In this document: positions 2,450 to 35,134 of the stretch, piece by piece
Layout: every line of letters starts with the position of its first letter
How positions within the stretch are numbered: the first letter of the stretch is position 1
From: Apophysomyces variabilis
Lineage: Eukaryota > Mucoromycota > Mucoromycetes > Mucorales > Mucoraceae
NCBI GenBank assembly: GCA_002749535.1
Contig: MZZL01000054.1
Location: forward strand, 5,580-69,579
Length of the DNA stretch: 64,000 bases
Reading direction: 5' to 3'
Notes under the pieces: model-generated
The model's database searches: none
What the model was told of the DNA's origin: nothing
Seen by the model: only the letters and a program-made list of their open reading frames with translations
Translations under genes and position numbers: made by a program

Positions 2450-5400
2450 CGTTTTTGTTTTGGATTGTCCAGTTCTTTGTCCAAGAAGTAGTCTACAGCT
2501 GTGAAGGACCCGCTAGGAAATCCGGATCGCCCGATCAGCCTGTGGCCAGAAGGGTTAGAGACATAGAAGATGATTTTTATGTGACAAACACTCATCACCA
2601 GTGCAGGTTATATGGGCGAATTTATAGTGGAATGACCGAGATATTTTGAGGCAGCTCCTCCAGGTTTAGCTAAAGAATATCCTGCCATCCACACAACTGA
2701 GAGTGCTGTATCATCCCGCATTATAAATCCCATGCGGTCATTTTCCATTCCGGGATGGGACCAGCCCCATTCGCCCGCATGCTGAGCAAGCATCATCATC
2801 TACAACACAATATTTTAGAGTTTCAATTTCTCGCATTTCTCCAGCAAAAAGATCTGAGGGATGTCACAGTACCAGCATTTAGTACCTTTGATGATCCGCT
2901 CGGATATGCTTGTTTTACACCAAGTGCAAAATAATTAGCAAAATTCCATAATGACCATGTTGAAGAGAAGACCGTTTATCATCGTCAACATACTAGCTCA
3001 CTAGCAGCGAACATTGTACACATCGACCATAGCCACAAGGTAAATGGCATAGTTTCCCTTGCTGTTCCTGTAGCTAATATGCATTAAGATCATTTCGGTC
3101 ATCAAGCATTTGCGTAAGCTTGCTGGATTAAAGATTTTCAAAGCACTCTTCACTAGGATCAAGAAGATGGAGGGACCCGTATTCATTGCTTTTTTCCCTC
3201 CACTTCAATGGATTATGTGAAGAAACCTTTGGATGATACGAAGTTGAGCCTAACGTCTTTTGGACATTCCATCTAAATGTCCTTTTCACAGACAAAGTAG
3301 AGGCCGATATGCAATTTTTGGAAACGTGATTTGAACCCTCGAAGGAAGATATCCAAGCAGTGAGGTTAACTTAACCTTACAGAGATCTGCTCGTACTCAC
3401 TCTTCCGGAGAGCGTGACAAATACCGTACATTCTATGCAACCCAGATCAACAACGCGTTAACACCATTTGCTTGAGCAGCTGGATGATACGGCCTACAAC
3501 ACGACCGTTGGGATTCGATGCGGACTGCGCTTTTAATGCTGATAGTCATAGCATGTGGCATCCGGTTGCTGTTCTTCAAGTAGCTCATCCGTCATTTGGC
3601 GTCAGGATCCTAAGGCTGTCAAAGCTGATGATCGTAACACATGCTTTCCTGCAACTTATTGCTTGTGAACGCATTAAGAAGGCAGGAAGAAATATCAGTC
3701 AAGATATAGCTCGCGTGTAGCGCAGTCTCCCGAAAGATTAGTTCCAAAAAGAAGCCATGCAGAAATAGTTGCACTGACAAAGCAACGTGCTTTTATACCC
3801 ACGACAACAATAAATCTTGCCGATATCTGCGCCATGGTTGTGGAGAAACGTCTCCCAAACGAGAAAAGCATCCGTGAAAGTAACCAGGAAGGAAATCTGT
3901 TCTTGGATCAGCTTAAATATGTTGCTTTTTATGCTTGGATGTGTTTGGAGCGCTCCACCCGAATGTCGACAGTCCCGGCAGCGACTCGAATATCAGATTG
4001 TGATTACGTTTTGTGACATGGCTTACCCGTAACGTTGCTTAGCGATGATTGTATCAGACCGGTAGCATACGTAAAACCATACAGGAAGCATAGCCAAGGC
4101 AAGCAAGCATAGATACCATGCATTAACATGTTCATGATGTTTCCGACAGAATATTCAATGGGAGAACCGTAACAAATTCGCGTATGGGCCATAGATATCG
4201 AATGGATTCTTGTTCTCGGTGTCATGCTTCAACTGACGTCCGAAAGCCCCTGCCAACTTTTGAACTGACTCATTACCGTATGATTTGCATGTTACACTGT
4301 TTGCGATATAGACGCCATGCAAACGAACAACTACCCGAGCGCGAACACATACCTGAAATTACTACGACACCTTCACTGATAGCCCCTCATCGAAACGATA
4401 CCTCTATAGAGCGCGATAGCAATCACTATTGCGCGCTAAGTTATGGCATTGACAGGACATTATCAGAAGAGCTTGAAGAAGACAAGTACGTATCAAGCGG
4501 ACTTGCTGCTCAAGAAGTGGACACTTCGTATATTGACATTGACGGCCAGAGGCTGAGCTGTAGCCTTCTAGATCCCGTTTATACGAAAGCACGAGATATC
4601 TTGCGTGATATGAAAGTTTATAATGTCCATAAGAGAGTGCTACAAGATGCTTGATATGTGTTAAAGCGCATTTCTCGCAAAGAAAACATGGTTTGCTCAG
4701 CAATTCCAAAGGAAACTTAGTGACACAGCGTTTGTTACGGACAAAAACGACTACGACAAAGTTAAACAAGTTTTAAAACCTCAAAGCGATTTGTTTGACT
4801 ACGGCATGTATAAACAAATGACGAAACGTTAAATAAGTAGTCTAACGATATCGTAATCCAGCGCGATCGCAAAAAGTTGCTGCAGGCCAGAAGCCGAAGG
4901 ATAATACCAACTTCGCAGAAAATGTTATACTCGGCTACAACGTCTTTATCACACTATGACTATTGCGATGCGCACATACGGGAGACCTGGTTTCGATAAC
5001 TGTGGCTAAAGGATACCTCAGTGGAACTAAAGGAATACTGAGCCTATAGCATTAGACATTTAAGGACAAACATGACTTATGGCTTTATGGCTGTTCTAGA
5101 GGAACGAAGACCTTCGAAGGAGGAATTCATCAGAGCGTGATACAACGATTTGGCGCATTGAATGCGAGTCCAATGTTTGCACCTAATTTACTTGTAGTAT
5201 ACAGGACTTAGGCACAATCTTAGCCAAAATATCTACTTGCATGTATATGCTAGTGTACTGACACTTACCTTAGGTAGGGCTTGAGAACCGTTATGGATGT
5301 CGATACAGGAGCCATTTTGATCTGTGGTTGATGAATGACATCCAACGGCTATACCTGTCCTTAGATGACACTATCCCAAAACATTAGGAAGGATGATCCA

Positions 5401-5850
5401 ATACCTCTTTCTTTAAGCAGGCAACGGAGCAATTCGATATAGCACAAGTTCCCTTTTCCCATTACACCAGTCTTGATTTGAAAGCATACCAGACGGTGGA
5501 TAGCAACCGAGAAAAGCCTAATACGCTTTACAAGTATCTGGCCCACAAGCAAAATACCCTTTTGTTATCGTTCTGGTCCATATTAAAGAGGGGAAACAAA
5601 ACATTTTCCAGACTCATCGCCCATTACTAGCAGAGCAGACTAACTTTCCACAAGTGGTCTGAATTTGCGAAGAAATGGAATGAATGCGAGGCAAATTGGC
5701 ATTACTATATTCTTTAAATACCCACAGAGCTTGCAGTCATGCCACCAGATCTGGCAACAGGATCAAGTTGTTCAAAGTATCAAGACCTACAACAACTTCA
5801 GGAATTGCACGCGCTTTTTGGATTGCTGCCTCGCGGCTGAAGATTGGTTA
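2450..5850 (+). pseudogene. Decayed protein with WRN/RNase D-like 3'-5' exonuclease block
   Basis: Traces of one long plus-strand protein appear in all three frames, interrupted by many stops and shifts. The clearest block is at 3480-3965. It begins with a motif I-like GFDADCAF (families have GFDxEW), continues with HPVAVLQVAHPS and GRNISQDIAR (motif II-like), and ends with LDQLKYVAFYAWMCLE, where families have Y(A)xxDAW. The motif I glutamate and the motif III aspartate are therefore lost. Upstream at about 2830-3150 there are weaker traces (SLAANIVHIDHSHKVNG) of the kind of domain that precedes such exonucleases in repeated fungal genes, which I recall as DUF6729-type. Downstream traces run to about 5850 (for example the stretch containing FHKWSEFAKKWNE near 5650). 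It is dead as a gene. Whether it was mobile is inference. Confidence 0.5.
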
Positions 5851-7529
5851 TCATTAATCGTTTTAGATTGCAAAATTCCATATAAATGACATCGCTTTTG
5901 CAGTGATCACACAAGAATTGCATTAGATTATATAGGACTTTCCTTGTCACTAGACGCTGTCCAGCATCATCAATAATCTATTTAATGTATATTTGTCGGC
6001 TTGTTTGAGTTTTCTCGTCATAGATATCATGTGTTCAACTGTCGTCATTGCTGGCTTGCGGAGTTGATGATAGTGTATGGGATCAGCATCGAGTGGATGA
6101 TTCTACTCGCTTAAAGGAGAAACGTCGATAACTGTCCACTTTTCGGTTCCTAACTTTCATAGACTCATACAAAAATGCGCTTACAGGAAACCCTGGAATG
6201 GGGCTCTCCAGCCTAAAGCACTGTCCGTAGTAATTTTCGTCTGATTCATGGGTGTGACTAAGAATTGGACGTTTATCCATTTACTATTATATTAGCAGCT
6301 CTAAAAGTCGACGTTTCCAAACTGGTTTACTTGGCGTTTTCCGTTTTTCTTGGGACAGGGAGTTAAAGAGGTTCCCAATCTTTTTCTGAAGTGTGCAGCA
6401 CAATCCGAAGTTCTCGGAGGGCTTGTCTACGCGCATCAGTTACGTCACTACTTTCCCAAGCGCACTTACCAGCCTAACCCGACGAAGGGCTATATGCTTT
6501 GTTCTTCTAAGCCTTGTTGCTTGCAAGGACGTTTTAATCCGGTCGGACGGGAGTCAAGGTCATTTATCTTCATATATTCAATAGGGATTCTTCGTATATT
6601 GAGACTAGCGTGAACGTCTCTATTCCAATACTAATATATATGGTCACCACGAAGAACATCTTTTAGGAGCAGAAGCCCTTACCATTGGACGATTCGAGCT
6701 GAACGTGTCTTCCGATAAATGATTGTTGCAAATTTTTATCGGATAGACAATCGTTCGGCTATCGTTTAATGCTGGAAATGCTAGTCAGATTGCAAGATAC
6801 TGAAGCTGAAAGGTATTGTCATACCAAGTTTCTTTTTATCACGACATTGAGATGTTCTGTGCAGTATCTTTCTGTTATCATCGAGGCAGAGGCGCCGTAG
6901 CTAGCGATCATTGTCCTGACGTGTTAACTTTATTCAAAGCAATAAAGTTAATCGGATGATGATCATACAGGTAAATATCCTACTTGTGTTTACAGCGGAA
7001 AGTTTCAGGATTACGCATGAGTTCGGTATTTTTGTCACACCAAGAGCAAATCTGACTGGTTAAATATTCATTTACAAGGATCACTAGGCATTTTCTAGCC
7101 AGAAACCTGCGAAAAGTATTCGCAAATCACGACATGAATCAACCGAATTAAAAAAAAATTAAAGATGCAACCTTTACCGGCAGTGGGGCGTCGCCTTTCA
7201 CGCTTGGTTTAAGATCTGCATCTCCATAAGCTACTATGACTCGTCACCTATCTGTTAGGTATTTGACTTTTCTTTGTTGTTGCATTCTGTCTTTTTTGTT
7301 GGTTTTATGAGCCATCGGTATCTCTTTCTGTTAAGATCTAAAGTTAGGAGAAATAATTAATAGCCGTCTTACCGATCACCCTCCTAGAAAAATTCGATTT
7401 GTCAGTCGATGAAATATGATATTTCTCGCTCGAAATAACAACATTCTGTTTTCACGGTGTCTGTAATGACAGCTACCGTCGTGTATTCTATAAACAAAGT
7501 AAGGATCCAATATGATTTAAAATTGTATC
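5851..7529. other. Non-coding or fully decayed stretch
   Basis: Only short open frames occur (for example 65 codons at 6083-6280 minus and 87 codons at 6350-6613 plus). None resembles a known family or has consistent splice sites. I see no RNA gene or repeat. Confidence 0.4.
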
Positions 7530-9430
7530 TTACTTGTCATTAACTTCGCTAAGTGTCTTCAGATATTTCTGAAAGCCTTGTACACTGGCGGTTTTCGGTG
7601 ATGCTTCATTTAACTTGTCATACACCTGTGCTTGCATGTCGGCTTTCTTACAAATTCTTGGTTGTATCTGCTTACACCACGTAAACATCGAACCAGATCT
7701 AGGTAGTTGGGTTATTTCTATTGTTGTCATCTTTTGCCTATTTCAAATATGATCTTACTAGTACTCCTCATTGGATACAGAGAATGTGTGTGCAGGCCAT
7801 CCGCCGAGTCAACCGCACTAGCGACATCCCGAATGCCTAGTTTTGCACGTAAGAAGACGCAGCTTCATAAATAGGACTCTTAATCTCACCAGGATCAATT
7901 TCTATGATCCTTGTAATCCTGGGATCCCCAATCGAAGTTGGTTTCTTTCGTAGATGATATATGCCGCGATTCTGTTGGCTCAGATCTCGCTCTTTTTCCA
8001 GTCGGTTGAAGTCCCGTTTGGAGCTTAGGTATTGTTCTAAGAAAAATTCAGTTACTAAGGTCAATTGTATTTGGTAAGACTCTTACCAAAGCCGGTGCAC
8101 TCAAATAACATGGAACCGGATACTCCATCAGTTTCCAAATAGTAGTGGAAAGCTATGGCTTTGTCGGCTATCAATAAAAGACTGGCAAGTTAGGGTAACT
8201 GCAAAAATGAGAGTACGTATCTTTCTATATAATAGAAGACACATACGTTTTTCTGGGTTGTTGTCCTTTTTTCGCCTTTCTTTGATTTGGCTGCAATCTG
8301 TCCAGGTCAAATATAGATTCCCAAATAATTCTCTCCATTCAACATCTCTACGGTTACGGTCATATGCTTGTTTAGAGATCAAACGCCGGCTATGGTTCTA
8401 TTATCAATAGATGAGCGTTATTATCGAAGCAACTTATCCTTATTACTATGCCATAGCGACTACGAATCCTTCCAATCATCTCCTGAGGTACAGCTTTTCC
8501 TTTGTAGTGACAATCGGTGAGGAAACGCCAAAGCACGAATGCCGTCACTGGCATATGTATAACTTGATGGCTTGCCAAAGACATGATCGACTAACATTAT
8601 GACTCTAGGGCTTCTGCATCCCGATCAAGAAAAGAGGAAAACTCAATATACTGTTGTAGGACATCGATTGGTATGGATATATCATCGTCATTCTGATTAG
8701 TCATGATTTCTTCACGAACTTCTTGCTCATATTTTTCATCCTTTGCTTCAGTATCTTTATCCATCGGCAGCTCCTGTTGTCAAGCTGGCGCAGGTATGGT
8801 AAGCTCAGGTATTTTTCCAAGTGCCTCCTAAATGTCAGAAAAAAATCCAATACATGCAAATCCTTGCAGTAACCTATAACATTTACTTGTACAAGGCTTT
8901 TGCTTCTTTTTCATGGGAAAGCGTCAGAGATTCCCAGTCCATTTCTTCTACTGACTTTTCTTGCAGACACACGGTGCCATTTTCTTAGCTAAAAAATAGT
9001 ACCCGTGTTTAAAGTAGGAAAGTTCTCGCGAAATGGCAATTTTTGAGCATTACCACGAGTGGCTGGACCACTAGATTCATTCCTTGAAAAAAAAAGCCTT
9101 CCACACGTAGATTAGGTATGTTTTTACATTATTGACGATATGTAGTTTCGCGTCTATAGCAAAGGCGATATCAGTCAATCGACAATTCCGTTTCATTGCT
9201 TGTCAGAGACATACTGGCAATAGCTTTGGGAGCATATACGGATGCCAGTTCTTTGGTCGTGGCTGTCAATTTTGGAGGGATGTGGTGAACTATTCCACAT
9301 GTTAAAGCTGTGATCCATGGTAAGTTTTTGGGCTACCTGTGCAAGGAACGAAGTATTCAGTATACATCTTAACCAAATCTTTTTCCCATTCCTTCAAGTT
9401 ACCTCTTGGCTATGTCAACTGAGTGCTTGT
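7530..9430 (-). pseudogene. Decayed multi-exon gene of unknown family
   Basis: On the minus strand several protein-like segments follow one another from about 9430 downwards. One, near 9400-9180, contains the run PWITALTCGIVHHIPPKL and needs a one-base shift after a five-A run at about 9330. The next ends in HEKEAKALYK at about 8888 and has a textbook 59-bp intron (GTAAAT...TTTAG) leading to EALGKIPELTIPAPA. That exon has an in-frame TGA at about 8781 before continuing into an acidic segment (8595-8762). Further weak segments lie at 8390-8584, 8128-8382, 7837-8064 and 7530-7730. The combination of good splice sites with stops and shifts suggests a gene or element copy that died fairly recently. 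I do not recognise the family. Confidence 0.35.
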
Positions 9431-27957: not shown

Positions 27958-29166
27958 ATGCTGACACGATCGCGACGGAAACAGTTGAACAATGACAGTG
28001 CAGCCTCGCTACAAAGCGAACAAACCGAAATTGTCAATAAAAAGACCACCAAACAGCGGAGAACAAAAGAACCTGTTATTGTTATCGCAAACAATGAGGC
28101 GAAACTCTCTCATGACGATAAATCGGAAGTGATGCCTCAAAATGGCGGGTCGGAGCCTACCTTGGATGATAAAGCTAGAGAAATTGTGGCTGACATGGTT
28201 ACCGAGAAAGACAGCGAAACCGAGAGCGACACTGAAAGTGAAAATGAGGATGACGATGGCACTGACGTTGACGATAGCAGCGAGGACAGTGATAGCGAAG
28301 ACGAAGAAGAAGACGATCTTGCCGAACTATTAAAGAATGCAGAATCTGCGCTACGTGCACAGCAGGAAGGACAAAAAGCAGAGGAAGACAATGATAGGTA
28401 AAAGTGGGATACGGGCACCAAGGGTTGATCTGTTGCTAACGTTATGCTGATCGTAGTAATGGGGAAAAGAAAGAAATAGTGTAGGTTATCTAATCTTTGA
28501 ATGTGTGGTAGCTAGAGGAACTGAAAATTTTTATTTAAGGTTTACCAAGATGGACGCCGGTATTTCCATAGAAGATCAATTATATATCAAAACGGAGAAG
28601 AAAAAGGCGCAGCTCATTCAGAACAGCGTCGCGGTTACGGATGGGAAGGAAGCCACTGATAAGAAGGCTTTGGTGACTTTGAAAACATCGATTGATGCAA
28701 GTAAGCCACCGTCAAGGAAAGAACGACAGCAGGTAAATGTCGGGCGAGATCATAAACATTCAATTATTGGTTCCTAACTTCGATGTAACAGGAAAGAGAA
28801 AAAACATCAGGAAAAGGATGGTTTGATATGCCGCGGACAGAGATTACTCCTGAGATCAGACGAGACCTGGATATCTTAAAAATGCGACATGTGATTGATC
28901 GAAAGAGACATTACAAAAAGACGGGAAAAGCAGCAGATCCGAAGTATTTCCAAGTAGGAACCATCGTCGAAGGACCTACTGAATATTTCTCATCACGTAT
29001 GTCGAAACGCGAGAGGAAAGGAACCATTTTGGGCGAGTTACTGGCAGACGAAGAATCCAAGAATTACTACAAACGTAAATTTAACGAAACTCAGGAAAGA
29101 ACAAATAGTGGGAACAAAAAGTACTATAAGAAGCTTAAGCAAAAGCGACAGCAATGGGCAAAATAA
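27958..29166 (+). CDS. fcf2: Fcf2-family pre-rRNA processing factor (DNTTIP2/TDIF2-like)
   Basis: Fcf2 is a nucleolar protein of the 90S/SSU processome needed for early pre-rRNA cleavages that give 18S rRNA. Exons are 27958-28397, 28457-28480 (24 nt), 28540-28732 and 28792-29166, 343 residues, separated by three introns of exactly 59 bp. The N-terminal half is basic and then very acidic (Asp/Glu/Ser run, residues about 85-125). The Fcf2 domain is in the last exon: GWFDMPRTEITPEIRRDL, LKMRHVIDRKRHYKK, PKYFQVGTIVEGPTEYFSSR and a lysine-rich end. The tiny second exon is supported because it joins in frame to FTKMDAGI. An upstream in-frame ATG (27928) would add 10 residues; MLTRSRRKQ at 27958 looks more like the family start. 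Confidence 0.92.
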
Positions 29167-29280
29167 TAAAATCATAGCATTCCTTTGGCATAAAGCAGAT
29201 AATCTTTATACCGACGGAGTATCTGCAAAAAATCAGTCACCGATATAGAGCAGTGCTTGTACTTACTAGGTAATTGCCTT
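29167..29280. other. Convergent 114-bp gap between FCF2 and the Fanzor gene
   Basis: This short AT-rich stretch holds the 3' ends of FCF2 (+) and the Fanzor (-). In Fanzor and TnpB systems the guide (omega) RNA usually lies just downstream of, and overlapping, the nuclease 3' end. Here that means the minus-strand sequence running from inside the last Fanzor exon towards FCF2. I cannot see a transposon end or a confirmed RNA fold. Confidence 0.4.
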
Positions 29281-32200
29281 TCACGGGCCATGCAGAAGTC
29301 GAACCGGAGTTGGTTGACTAGCAAATTGTTGTGCAAGCTTGTAATTGCTTGAGTATTGAGAGTTGAACACCGGGATTGGACTTCCATCACTTGAGACAAT
29401 CATGGATACGCCTTTGAGTGCAATGTTCTTCGACGCATTGCCATCCCGGTTCATCGTGCTACAGCCGTTGACGACGGTAACACAGTTGGGGTTGACGCAG
29501 CAGACAGCTCCATTACACTTCCTGACCTTGCCGTCCTTCCCTCGGTATTTCTGTAACTGTAGAGGCTTGAGACACCAGTGGCATGTCTTACTAGTGTTGT
29601 ACTCGTTCACAATAACTACCAAGCCTTTTCGTCGTTGTACTCCACGTAACCGTTTGAGTCCCCTGCGAGCATGTCCTCGAATGCGAGAATTGGTGGGCTG
29701 CCAATGGCCGTAAAAATGAACAGCTTTTTGAAAAATCATGTCTGGGGGGAAGTGCATACGTTCGATGTCAGCATACTTGTGGTATGCTTTCTGGGTAAAC
29801 ACCTCTCTAGTACGCTTTTCACGTTCAATTCTCCTGTTCTCAGCTTCGGTTCCCTCTTTCTCGGCATTCTTGGCTCGTTCTCTGCGCAAACGATGTCTGC
29901 TCGAGCGCGAGTGATGGTTGACAGCTGATGCTCGGAAACTCCAGGTATTATAAATATCGTGCCGTAGCTCTGTCGTTGTGTTACTGGTAAAGTCCCGTAT
30001 CCGTTGTATCATCCATGCAGATGTCGTACTTGTTGACACACCGATGGTCCGGATACCGGGATCAACGCCGCAAACAGGGATCGAATTCTTCTCAAAAAGT
30101 GGCTTCAGGAGAGACAGCATCTAAAATCGTTATCAATCTTTCATGATCTCTTCAGATTAAAGTGTACTTACCTGTGGCATATACCCTTCGGTGATCTTTG
30201 CTTTGGCAGATGACGTTGCTTGGCTACTGCGCTTTTGCTTTTTGCGCTTTCGCTTTCGGGAGCGACTTGTTGAAGCGCTTCTTTTCTCTTTGCCCTTCCC
30301 TTTTCTGCTTACTTCTCTCATCGCTTTGTTAAGGACGTAACGATCCCGTCGAGCTTGCTTGAGCTTTTCTTGTAGGACAATGGCAGTATTTTGTTTAGAT
30401 CGGATTTGTTGCCGGGTTTGTTTCAGTTTTCGGTATGCCGTGCTATTTGTACGTCCATGAGCTGATGTGCTGTGATTCATCCGCTCTTTTTCCAAGGCAC
30501 CTATTTCCTTTTGTATTGGCTTCAATTGTTGCTCCAAACCGAGTATGCTTGCTTGTGTGCGATCAATTCTCTCCTGCAACTGAGCTTTGCTGAGCGTGAG
30601 TTCTATCTCGGGTTCCACGAATCTTTGATTATTTCGACGTTCTTGAAGTGCAGATACCTAAAGTTTGTATCAATTAACAATGCCTTCGACTCGTATTATT
30701 CACTTACTTGATGTGGTGTGTTTCGGTTGATAGTCCCTACGACTCGTACAGTCCACTCGTTCACAAAGACAAGTCTCCAACGGAAAAATAAATGACGCCG
30801 ATTCATCATGCGATGTATTTTGTCCATCTGGAAAAATGCTTTAAAGACGGTTTCTTTTTCAGTCCTCGCTTGAAGCCCACTAGTGATGAATTCCCCTTGT
30901 CTGTTTGTAGGTATATCAAATGCATCAATCATGATTTTGTAAATGCCGTCTGCTTTCACTGGCAAAGCCCATTTGTTACTTGTTTCGATCGTCAGCTTGT
31001 TGACACGATCTTGCATGCCCAAGATAGTACTGACTACGTTCGATAATGCCGCAATAGGCAATACGGTAAGTATATGCTTTGCTGGAGGTTCATCAGGTTC
31101 ATTTCTGCGTGGTGTGTATGGTTTCAGGAAGTTGGCAACTTTGGCAGCCACTTGTTGCTCGGTTATGGTCAATATAGTACCCGTATGGACAGCGTCTGCG
31201 ACGTCTTTTGCACTTATAGTACGTTTGATCAGGGGGGATTCGACCAGCATACGAACAATTGCAACTAGTGTACGAATAGTACGAGCACTGGTTTCCTTAC
31301 TGGTTATTGGAGCTTGGCTACTAGTAGTAGCTGCCGTATCTTCGTCATCTTCAGAATCATTGACCAGGTCATCCTCTGCTTGATCAAGCCTAAAAGCTTC
31401 GTACTCATCGTCAGCTTTTTGACTTTTAATTTCCTCTTCATTCGATTTCTTCTGGTCCTCTGTTCGATCTTTTCGAGGTAAATTATCAGCAATCTTGCGT
31501 TGAATAGTTTCGACCACATTATCGGGACGACCATTCATGTATGCTTTCTTCAGTTCCTTGGTCCAGTACGATCGATTGCGCCGTCTTTGTACATTAGACC
31601 TTAAATCTTGTCGCTGTTCTTGGCGATCCTTCTTTTCTTCGGCTTTTTCCTTCACAAGCTGCATGTATTTGGACATGCGACGTGGCGCTAAATTTACACG
31701 GAGCAACAGACGGATGACATTGGCAAGAGATCTTGGATATAAGGAACCACTGTAGAGATTGTTCGCCGCAGTATACAACGCCCTTAAAGAATCGGCTTGA
31801 AACTGTGACGCTACAGCATCATCGTTGGGATCGACCAGGGAGGATAGCACACCATTTATGCTAAACCATGGTTTAGGTCTGCAGCCGAAAAAAGAATTAG
31901 CAAGATTACTATAAAATGTAAAACGTACATCTGCTCTGTGTATATACCGCCAACTGTGCTGTAGAACATGTTTTGGAACTGAGCAAAAGTGAATATGTTT
32001 GAATCGACAGCGGCGTCTGCATTAATAAAAGGCAGAGAGACTATACTGTGTTTAGCTTTATGATCGCCAAAGTCGTAATCAGCAGGGAAAACGTCTGCTA
32101 GGTTGATTTGAGTACTGTAATTGTCATATCCAATGAATTGGTACACGTCGCCGCGAAGTACCTAACGAGGAGATGTTTAACTTCCCGGTAGTAAACATGT

Positions 32201-33469
32201 CAAACGACAAACCATATCCGTAAAATGAGATAAAACAGTTTCCATATTGCTTATCACTCTCGAATTTGATTCCTGTGTCATCACCAAGCGGGATCTTACA
32301 GTATCAAGATCGATATCTGGGCGAACAAGTTTTCGCAAAGTTGTGGTAGCCACACGAACGTACTCTTGATGGTTATCGTCTTCGTCATCGCTTTGCTCCT
32401 CGTCTTCACTTGGCTCGTCACCACTTCTGTTATCACCTTCACTATCATCACCGTGTATATCACTTGCTTTTCTCTTGGAATCCTTGACTGATGCAGCTTG
32501 TATTTCGTGATCAGTGATCTTTTTCAACTGATTGCGATAAAAAAATCTTGCCATATCGTTCCAGAGCAACACAGGTTTATCCGGGCCTTTGAAATGTTGT
32601 TCAAGAGCAGATGGAGAAGCCTTTGTACCGTATTTCTCTTTCAAGGTTTTGAAAAGATGATCCGAGCTTCCGCTGCTAGTTATCAAACCTTTAGGCGTCT
32701 TGTTTCGGTTCATGAATTTCTCTTTGAATTTTTCTAAAGCAGCTCGAGTTGGATTTTTGTTTCTTGTAATTCTGGAAAATTCCAAATGTATCCTCTTATT
32801 GCTGTGATATTATGTATTTAGATGATGTTCAAGTAAAAACAATGATCATGCTTACATTTCTTTTCGTAACTCATCCTTAATAACTTCTTCTGTCACACCA
32901 AGTGGTGCACGTTGTTTTTTCTTCCTTCGCTCTCCCACGACATTTTTCATGGTCGCAGCAGGTGATATAAAAGGTGATTTTTCGATTGTGGTTTCAGGAC
33001 CCGGTAGCTTCGGAGAGGTAAACCTTGCGATATATAAAGGAACCCAACGACTGGTTCCCGTATGAGAGTCCACTTCATGAAGAAGCGACATGTTATAGAC
33101 TGACTGATTGTTTCCAATCACTTTAGGTTTGCTCTGCGTGGAGAACAGGTACACCCGAATGTTGTACATTTTGGCAATAGCAATCAGACGTAGAAGGCCA
33201 TTTGCGGGAATGGTTTGGTTATCAGATAATCGTAGGGATACAGCATGCTGCTTGTCGCCTAAGCATCGCACTACAGCTACAGACAAGGCAGCCTCTAATG
33301 GAGAGGTGTTGAAAAGCTTAGACACGGTTTGTATACCCCTTGCTTGCAACCATTGTAGCGCCTTGCTTCGGTTCTCTTTTGATATTGGTCGCCCTCTAGC
33401 CCCAGCAATCACTGTTTGCATGCACTGCTCATAGTTTTTAGTGGGGCTACGGCTGATGGCATCGCCCAT
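29281..33469 (-). CDS. Fanzor-type RNA-guided nuclease (eukaryotic TnpB homologue), apparently intact
   Basis: Six exons on the minus strand: 32856-33469, 32213-32771, 31929-32161, 30708-31878, 30172-30657, 29281-30120; introns 50-84 bp; 1300 residues with all phases closed. The last exon carries a split RuvC nuclease as in IS605 OrfB/TnpB: RuvC-I CGVDPGIRTIGVST (Asp about 1041), RuvC-II VVIVNEYNTSKTC (Glu about 1194), a zinc ribbon (CHWC...CCVNPNC), then RuvC-III MNRDGNASKNI (Asp about 1247). All three acidic residues are present. Exon 5 is a coiled coil followed by a strongly basic patch (KRKRKKQKR), a likely nuclear signal. The about 1000 residues before RuvC contain an N-terminal region I do not recognise, an acidic linker and a probable recognition lobe. 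Spliced, long copies like this are Fanzor1-like. It is either a live or recently live mobile gene, or domesticated. The start ATG at 33469 is the first good one; a further 5' exon is possible because GTAG precedes the reading frame at about 33483. Confidence 0.9.
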
Positions 33470-35134
33470 ATTAAGACCTGGGTTTCCTACAAAGTTCAAA
33501 TTTGGCAGCTACCATATTTTTAACGTTAGTGTGCAGTGCTTGTTTTCTGTCTTTTACTTTACCATATAACAAAAAAAAATAGTACAATAAAAAGGATAAG
33601 TAAATAAGTACTTGAGAGTGCGTAGACAGTGAAGTGTTAAGAATAAGAATCAACTGCTGAAATATGACGTATTTAAACAAATCATTTCATTGTGAATACT
33701 TCTCCTTGGATTGTGTAACAGTACAGTATAGTTCAAGACAATGAATCATTCTGCAGTCGGCGTGTCAAATACTGAAGATGATCACTGATAAAACAATCAT
33801 TATATTCGATGGCGTAATTGATGTTTTTCCTTATGCAAACATCAAAAGGGGTTATCGTAAATCTCCATAATACTGTAGTTTATACAATAAGTACATATCC
33901 GATTTCTTAGCACTACGAAAAGTGCCCTTAAACGAAACTTCTATGGTTTATCTATATTCACTTTAATATATACACTCAGTGAATAAAGAAACGAACCAAT
34001 AAAAGGTTCCTGCAAGAAAGAAACAGAAGTGAGACATTGAAATTCTTTGTGTAATTTATCTTTGATGTGTAGAACGAGCTTTTTCTTTTTATTTTCTATG
34101 TGTGTAGTCTATTGCTTTCATTATATATACCTTTATATTTTAGCTACCAATGTTTTAAGAGAAATAAAAGAAGATTGACAGTATCGTTACAGCAAATAAA
34201 CAAAGTTCTCTGTTGTCATTTGTAGTTCTTTTGTTCCTGTTTAGTTTTAGTTAAAGGTGGACCGTAGATGATGTAATAGCATGGCCTATGGCCAACTTCG
34301 CTATCTACTTGCGAAGAGCGAATGCATAAGTATAGTGGGTGTGGGCGAGGAAGCGCTGTAGAAAGATGCGTGTAAGGAATGGTAGGAACCGTTTTGAGGA
34401 TATCAGAAACGCGAGGATCCTGAGATTTTAGGATCTGTTTTTATATACAACGTCTGTGCGTGGAGAGTAAATGTACAAACAAATGAAGTACAAAAGATCG
34501 CTATCTTACTCGTCGCCTATACAGGCCAATCCGCACACAAGGTCATAAAGATCTATCTGTAACATGCACTTCTACAGATAAAGTGTGTATATAATGTATG
34601 GTTAGCATGTATTTTTCGATATCCGTCTAGGGAAAAAAAAAGATTAGTGCTTCGGCTAGCGAGTGACAGAGATTGCGATATTTCTGAGCTATCTGAGCGT
34701 CTGCCAATGCAAAAATTGAAATAGCTTGAGAAAAGTATCAAAAGCTGCGACTCAGCTTGGTGACAGAGCCAAAAATTCAGCAGGCGGGCTGTGACTCTTG
34801 TCACAAATTCAGTGACTCCGGCTGATGATACCGTAATGAAACGAGCCTTATTGACCACGTTGCTCTGGTAACACGAAGAATAGCGGCGACTGAACCGAAC
34901 TTTGGGAGAAGCCGTAGTACCGGCACCTCATGATTTATTTTTGGACGAGAAAAGAAAGAAAACGAGATGTAAAAGTAACGTTCAATAATTAATAATTACG
35001 TATGCTCTGCGTTTTTATTTGAAAGTAACACGACCTATATGAAGATGATAGACAATTACTAGTATGCAAGCCAAGAATTCAAACAAAGAAAATTGTGATC
35101 GGGTACCGAGCCTTGTCATTTTGTTTCAGACAGT
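33470..35134. other. AT-rich region upstream of the Fanzor gene
   Basis: This 1.67-kb stretch lies between the Fanzor start and the 3' end of the membrane-protein gene. It holds the Fanzor promoter and, if the element is mobile, its left end. A minus-strand frame at 33471-33680 could contain a 5' leader exon. No terminal inverted repeat or target-site duplication could be picked out by eye. A 101-codon minus-strand frame (34553-34858) has no family content. Confidence 0.4.

Follow-up and report, generated by a model that had tools for sequence, protein, structure and literature searches.

Fanzor proteins are relatives of the RNA-guided DNA cutters behind CRISPR. In TnpB and Fanzor systems, an RNA from the 3' end carries the flanking sequence as guide, and for TnpB there exists the idea of copy retention.

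Several described systems are close to the locus reported here. The Fanzor1 protein of Spizellomyces punctatus (SpuFz1, PDB 8gkh) has a RuvC domain with an alternative glutamate and a zinc ribbon, and is encoded by a single ORF; its element has terminal inverted repeats and ends a short distance past the stop codon. Its first catalytic aspartate is residue 383 of 638, and the RNA of SpuFz1 loci lies within an 80-nt region past the stop codon (PMC10432273). Fanzor1 proteins mostly have 600-700 amino acids (PMC11423790). In the Mucorales, the element MCi-2 of Mucor circinelloides carries a Fanzor1 and lacks terminal inverted repeats; its duplications measure 11-12 bp (ATAATTNNNN(N)), its 5' ends are unclear, and one subfamily contains a partial Crypton transposase gene. 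MCi-2 was left unclassified there, the link to Cryptons being uncertain (PMC3627910). CryptonF elements have 6-bp terminal direct repeats and no terminal inverted repeats (PMC3212892). In bacterial IS607 elements, the RNA-guided nuclease TnpB stands beside a serine recombinase with a short, 2-bp core, and a fixed base beside the element belongs to the RNA scaffold; the same source names Crypton recombinases among the partners of Fanzor1 (PMC10711439). With this Crypton-Fanzor1 link and with MCi-2, the kind of element described below is already known. Neither a Fanzor of the length reported here nor a single family for which matched ends, empty sites and selection are described together was found in the portions of the Fanzor and Crypton literature available to us.

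The locus lies in a window of 64,000 nucleotides of the Mucorales fungus Apophysomyces variabilis (contig MZZL01000054.1). We read it as a non-autonomous Crypton-like element whose one large gene encodes a Fanzor1-type nuclease about twice as long as usual, and give this reading, with the mechanism proposed further below included, a probability of roughly 0.7.

The gene is on the minus strand (33469-29281) and its six exons splice into a single open frame of 3933 nt with stop, encoding 1310 amino acids; all five introns have 50-54 nt and GT..AG borders, while SpuFz1 has one uninterrupted ORF. Exon 1 (32856..33469) encodes residues 1-204 plus two bases of the following codon. Exon 2 (32213..32801), exon 3 (31929..32161) and exon 4 (30708..31878) were placed by the gene model and by copy comparison; exon 5 (30172..30657, residues 870-1031) is, by eye, strongly basic and coiled-coil-like, and exon 6 (29281..30120, residues 1032-1310 and stop) carries RuvC and zinc ribbon. 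The preliminary description of this DNA had reported an intact, spliced Fanzor frame at the same position, and this observation is confirmed: position, number of exons and closed phases were correct, but the length given, 3903 nt, was not, owing to a 30-nt difference in splice choice.

All motifs named in that description are present in exon 6: VDPG with the catalytic aspartate D1051 (codon at 30061..30063, minus strand), VNEYNTSKTC with the alternative catalytic glutamate E1204 (29602..29604, minus), the zinc ligands C1211, C1214, C1239 and C1244 (in CHWC and CVNPNC) and NRDGNASKN with the catalytic aspartate D1257 (29443..29445, minus). DPG together with a glutamate six residues ahead of the zinc finger has been called the molecular fingerprint of Fanzors (PMC10711439); here, the VDPG of RuvC-I starts at residue 1050 and E1204 stands six residues ahead of the zinc ribbon (C1211). 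The Fanzor pattern D-X(125,275)-[TS]-[TS]-X-X-[C4]-X(5,50)-RD is matched as well, with D1051, TS at 1207-1208, the four cysteines at 1211/1214/1239/1244 and RD at 1256-1257. The spacing between the three acidic residues is 153 and 53, versus 158 and 65 in SpuFz1 (residues from PMC10432273).

Beyond the motifs, database and PDB matches give the Fanzor label weak backing. PF07282 is the sole Pfam match of the full-length protein at E <=1, with 27.1 bits versus a cut-off of 26.3; exon 6 alone scores 24.5 bits and stays under the cut-off. For exon 6, SpuFz1 is the single PDB match at E <=1 (E 0.0058). A profile of three sequences has SpuFz1 (E 0.016) and mimivirus L79 (E 0.048) as the top two of eight PDB matches, the other six being unrelated proteins with E values of 0.87 to 10; the two scores are weak, but both proteins are Fanzor or Fanzor-like and the alignment falls on the motifs. 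Pfam and PDB searches returned no sequence match for REC or WED domains, and the predicted RuvC structure is poor (pLDDT 33.6). Regarding Fanzor1 versus Fanzor2, the gene has no serine-recombinase match in Pfam and the element has no other large frame: judged by its content, the element would not be of the IS607 type and the protein would be Fanzor1-type. The interpretation of the preliminary description, a Fanzor, is supported.

Other Fanzors are present in the window and in the genome. On its minus strand, at 6490-7126 and 7837-8082, the window has the broken remains of a second Fanzor, from another family (VNEYLTSQICSWC, NRDVHASLNIRR, EIDPGE), whose zinc ribbon scores 27.2 bits with PF07282. 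Further Fanzor families with other zinc-ribbon signatures are represented by L001-L008, and the genome has at least 73 PF07282 matches at E 0.001.

A further difference to SpuFz1 is length: 1310 versus 638 amino acids, with 1050 rather than 382 residues before the first catalytic aspartate. The long pre-RuvC part noted earlier is real and exceeds that of SpuFz1 by about 670 residues; by its predicted sequence, the nuclease is about twice as long as a usual Fanzor1. Exon 1 gave no Pfam match (E <=10), no PDB match and no homologue beyond the family, and its predicted model, of low confidence, gave no convincing structural match. Pfam matches of exons 2, 4 and 5 are all under the cut-off and exon 4 is without PDB match.

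The borders of the element were defined by comparison of copies: flanks diverge beyond 29208 and 34834, so that the element has 5627 bp (29208..34834, minus strand), with edges common to copies in unrelated surroundings. Read along the gene, it begins with ACGGTATCATCAGCC at 34834 and finishes with ACTCCGTCGGTAT at 29208, and the stop codon is 73 nt from the 3' end; a similarly short distance is also a property of SpuFz1. The Fanzor is the one large gene of the element, as no other listed frame exceeds 146 amino acids, apart from the frames that hold the exons. Next to the element, on the plus strand at 28552-29166, there is a gene that by eye resembles Fcf2-type rRNA-processing genes and ends 41 bp before the element.

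A search of the genome (38.7 Mb, 126 contigs) with the DNA of the element returned at least 54 matching stretches; its 260 bp at the 5' end were matched 31 times and its 213 bp at the 3' end 26 times, these being counts of ends rather than of full copies, and at least two of the 31 5'-end matches belong to recombinase elements. Twelve other copies were aligned to the gene of the window. Three of them (L010, L011 and L012) are intact, with GT..AG at all 15 introns, bringing the number of intact copies to four. The three are 99.6-99.8% identical to the window copy over the whole element, figures that come from an assembly of Illumina reads, while near-identical long repeats need long reads; in the coding sequence they differ from the window copy by 3, 6 and 14 substitutions, respectively, and none of the four intact copies has a substitution at a catalytic or zinc residue. 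Seven older copies (L013-L018, L020) are broken by stops and frameshifts, with 31 of their 35 introns still GT..AG; L019 is truncated in exon 5 and L021 is gapped (991 N, small indels). The gene is a member of a recently mobile transposon family. It is neither a lone gene nor a sole survivor, as it belongs to a multi-copy element with three other intact copies.

The copies also bear on the idea that a Fanzor has been tamed to a host gene and is retained here for a host function. An intact frame under purifying selection (see below) is what this idea would predict, but three further intact copies have unrelated flanks, many copies are broken, and selection on moving copies explains the pattern; we consider domestication highly improbable.

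Several further observations concern the copies. Differences of L010-L012 cluster in exon 6 (in L012 also in exon 1); L011 has one in exon 4 and the other exons have none, which could be caused by gene conversion or by mixing in the assembly. Four fragments of about 89% likeness (L032:1501, C116:316067, C91:1251329 and C29:10073) all start at window position 32766, pointing to a deletion subfamily or to an element that contains another one. L040 represents an older related element, with 41-62% likeness in the exon-1 protein; it is interrupted by other sequence, and its frame 5131-5940 is, by eye, similar to a DDE transposase. Three relatives from Apophysomyces ossiformis are 86-91% alike.

Selection was studied with the seven broken copies (L019, L021 and the fragments L022-L038 were excluded). 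Changes private to one copy comprise 465 non-silent or stop versus 168 silent, a ratio of 2.77 that is near the values expected under neutrality (3.0 to 2.6 at transition weights of 2 to 4). Changes common to at least two copies comprise 83 non-silent versus 72 silent (ratio of about 1.1), and changes specific to the window lineage 13 versus 16. Shared and window-lineage changes together differ from the private ones with p 1.2e-7 (p 5.4e-7 with CpG sites removed), under tests that treat changes as independent although the copies have common ancestry. The difference is found along the entire protein: the shared ratio is 1.11 versus a private ratio of 3.2 for residues 1-480, 1.10 versus 3.14 for residues 481-869, 1.14 versus 2.0 for residues 870-1031 (few changes) and 1.04 versus 2.41 for residues 1032-1310. 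By codon position (1/2/3), shared changes number 48/43/93 and private ones 219/211/206 (p 1.2e-5), with an excess of shared changes at third positions in all six exons, albeit with small numbers per exon. The preference of shared changes for silent sites, seen throughout the protein, supports the spliced model independently of transcripts. The pattern of substitutions shows that the spliced frame, including its long N-terminal part, has been under purifying selection while the family moved; the earlier suggestion that this copy may be under selection is supported by the four intact copies and by these shared changes.

The same data allow an evaluation of whether exons 1-3 and exons 4-6 are two genes, with the real Fanzor being of ordinary length. 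The fusion is seen in no homologue, which speaks for two genes, but the phases close over five introns, the GT..AG borders of 31 of 35 introns persist in broken copies, selection is similar in residues 1-480 and the rest, and the third-position excess extends to all exons. Phase and selection evidence shows that each exon is coding in frame and is not a proof of one protein; two genes are, in our judgement, very unlikely.

The ends of the element point to its mode of movement. Along the gene, it starts with A-CGGTAT-CATCAGCC and ends with ACTCCGT-CGGTAT and thus has a 6-bp terminal direct repeat, CGGTAT, without mismatch at 15 of 18 5' ends and at 9 of 18 3' ends (compared by eye). Terminal inverted repeats, which distinguish SpuFz1 from this element, were absent by eye at the element ends, with CGGAGT occurring inverted a few bases inside both. 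Short terminal direct repeats without terminal inverted repeats are a feature of Cryptons, and CryptonF is alike in both. The 5' 260 bp (34575..34834, minus strand) are 79-80% like the 5' ends of two recombinase elements of the same genome, L039 and L041, which in addition to this 5' end share a further stretch of 72% likeness within an element of about 3.15 kb, and whose 3' ends are also like those of the Fanzor element. L039 ends with CAGTAT on both sides and L041 with CAGTAT and CAATAT, similar to C(A/G)GTAT. The protein of L041 matches NDC10_II (7.5e-39) and GCR1_C (2.2e-11), and L039 matches both in pieces; a recombinase-type protein with GCR1_C is a further likeness to CryptonF (PMC3212892). 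In L041 the frame consists of two open blocks, of 336 and 273 codons, with the intervening stop in an intron-like stretch, and the L039 copy has three stops in its first block. From these comparisons, the ends are Crypton-like, and the 5' end is common to this element and a tyrosine-recombinase element of the same genome.

The Fanzor element itself, unlike CryptonF, encodes no tyrosine recombinase (frame list and Pfam scan) and has the Fanzor as its only gene: it is not a Crypton itself but at most a non-autonomous derivative. MCi-2, compared by description only, is alike in being a Fanzor1 element of the Mucorales without terminal inverted repeats but differs from this element, which has sharp ends with CGGTAT (PMC3627910). 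The table of PMC5604411 lists no Crypton for Apophysomyces variabilis, and Crypton-type recombinase genes were found here. On the minus strand of L041, at 4243-6000, a second, different frame that adjoins the first is labelled as a Crypton-type recombinase by likeness, and the 3' side of the Fanzor copy L017 adjoins a Crypton recombinase gene, with a run of N in the flank. The outermost 100 bp of the 5' end (34735-34834) fold better than shuffled sequences (z -2.77) and are rich in GTCAC/GTGAC, words that also occur at Crypton ends and that are perhaps binding sites of the recombinase.

To see the state before insertion, the flanks of ten copies were searched for empty sites and seven regions were examined; the core was readable by eye in three (L045, L046 and L048), doubtful in L044 and unreadable in L047, L049 and L050. 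The empty sites are paralogous, with 76-87% likeness where they align. Two belong to the site of L011: L048, with flanks 13/15 and 12/12 alike around the core ACGAATT, and L046, with 14/15 and 10/12 around ACCATTT. L045, a paralogue of the L013 site, has 13/15 and 13/15 around ATGCTAT, and the doubtful L044 (L010 site, core AGGCAAT) has 9/15 on one side and 6 or 10/15 on the other; L045 and L044 have about 240 and 75 extra bases, respectively, further out between aligned stretches. Filled sites read ACGGTAT, element and then TCGGTAT (L011) or TTGGTAT (L013). Compared with ACGGTAT, the empty cores L048, L046, L045 and L044 agree in 4, 4, 5 and 4 of 7 positions and none is identical; simulation gave p 1e-4 for the four cores, a value that includes the doubtful L044 and two paralogues of one site and depends on placement by eye. 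A T directly precedes the core at 13 of the 18 insertions (p 2.7e-4 versus a background of 0.30). In two clear cases, L011 and L013, insertion has thus, as read by eye from paralogous sites, apparently turned one 7-bp core into two at core-like sites.

Such a doubled 7-bp core resembles a short target duplication, and the element is without a recombinase; another enzyme, a DDE transposase or other, could therefore target CGGTAT-like sites and duplicate 6-7 bp, with the likeness to Crypton ends reflecting nothing but shared ancestry of flanking DNA. Both junctions moreover have the core of the element, whereas after a simple exchange by a recombinase one of them should have the core of the target. 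The insertions are compatible with a recombinase core as well as with a short duplication specific to the target, but the shared ends speak for the recombinase; in addition, almost every time it is the same word that is duplicated (see the counts above), a like word is found at both ends of the recombinase element, and inverted repeats are lacking. We therefore regard movement by another enzyme as unlikely.

Under the preferred reading, a Crypton-like element moved by a tyrosine recombinase, the recombinase of the partner would excise the Fanzor element and reinsert it in trans. The nuclease would be directed to the freshly emptied site by an RNA that originates at the 3' end of the gene and extends through the 73-nt tail (29208..29280, minus strand), the expected place of the guide RNA, and through CGGTAT into the flank. 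If a copy still containing the element served as template for repair of the cut, a conservative recombination would end in a gain of copies. The closest analogy is IS607, where nuclease and short-core recombination likewise stand side by side, albeit in bacteria and with a serine recombinase of 2-bp core (PMC10711439); by this analogy, CGGTAT may belong to the RNA scaffold, and T(A) may be the motif. In the full extension of this idea, the Fanzor would have become the partner through which a tyrosine-recombinase transposon of eukaryotes gains copies, the 3' CGGTAT would be scaffold, the T(A) ahead of the core would serve as recognition motif, and the 670 additional residues would form a new module linking the nuclease to the recombinase or to repair; this extension is tentative and rather doubtful.

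The 3' end does not fold better than shuffled sequences (z 0.03 to 1.07), and the 73-nt tail is not conserved above the rest of the element. This absence of a guide-RNA signal in folding and conservation is what would be expected if the protein were a passenger, its frame kept but its nuclease no longer an RNA-guided cutter and serving, for example, in DNA binding or regulation; the catalytic triad and the zinc ligands are, however, unchanged in the four intact copies and also in P0002 and P0005, relatives of 58% likeness, and we consider such a passenger improbable.

That a Fanzor has 1310 amino acids and that selection acts on its long extension suggests a function not yet described. Together, the matched ends and the paralogous empty sites allow the carriage of a Fanzor by Crypton-type recombination to be put to the test and, if the nuclease cuts the emptied site, the idea of copy retention put forward for TnpB would extend to the tyrosine recombinases of eukaryotes.
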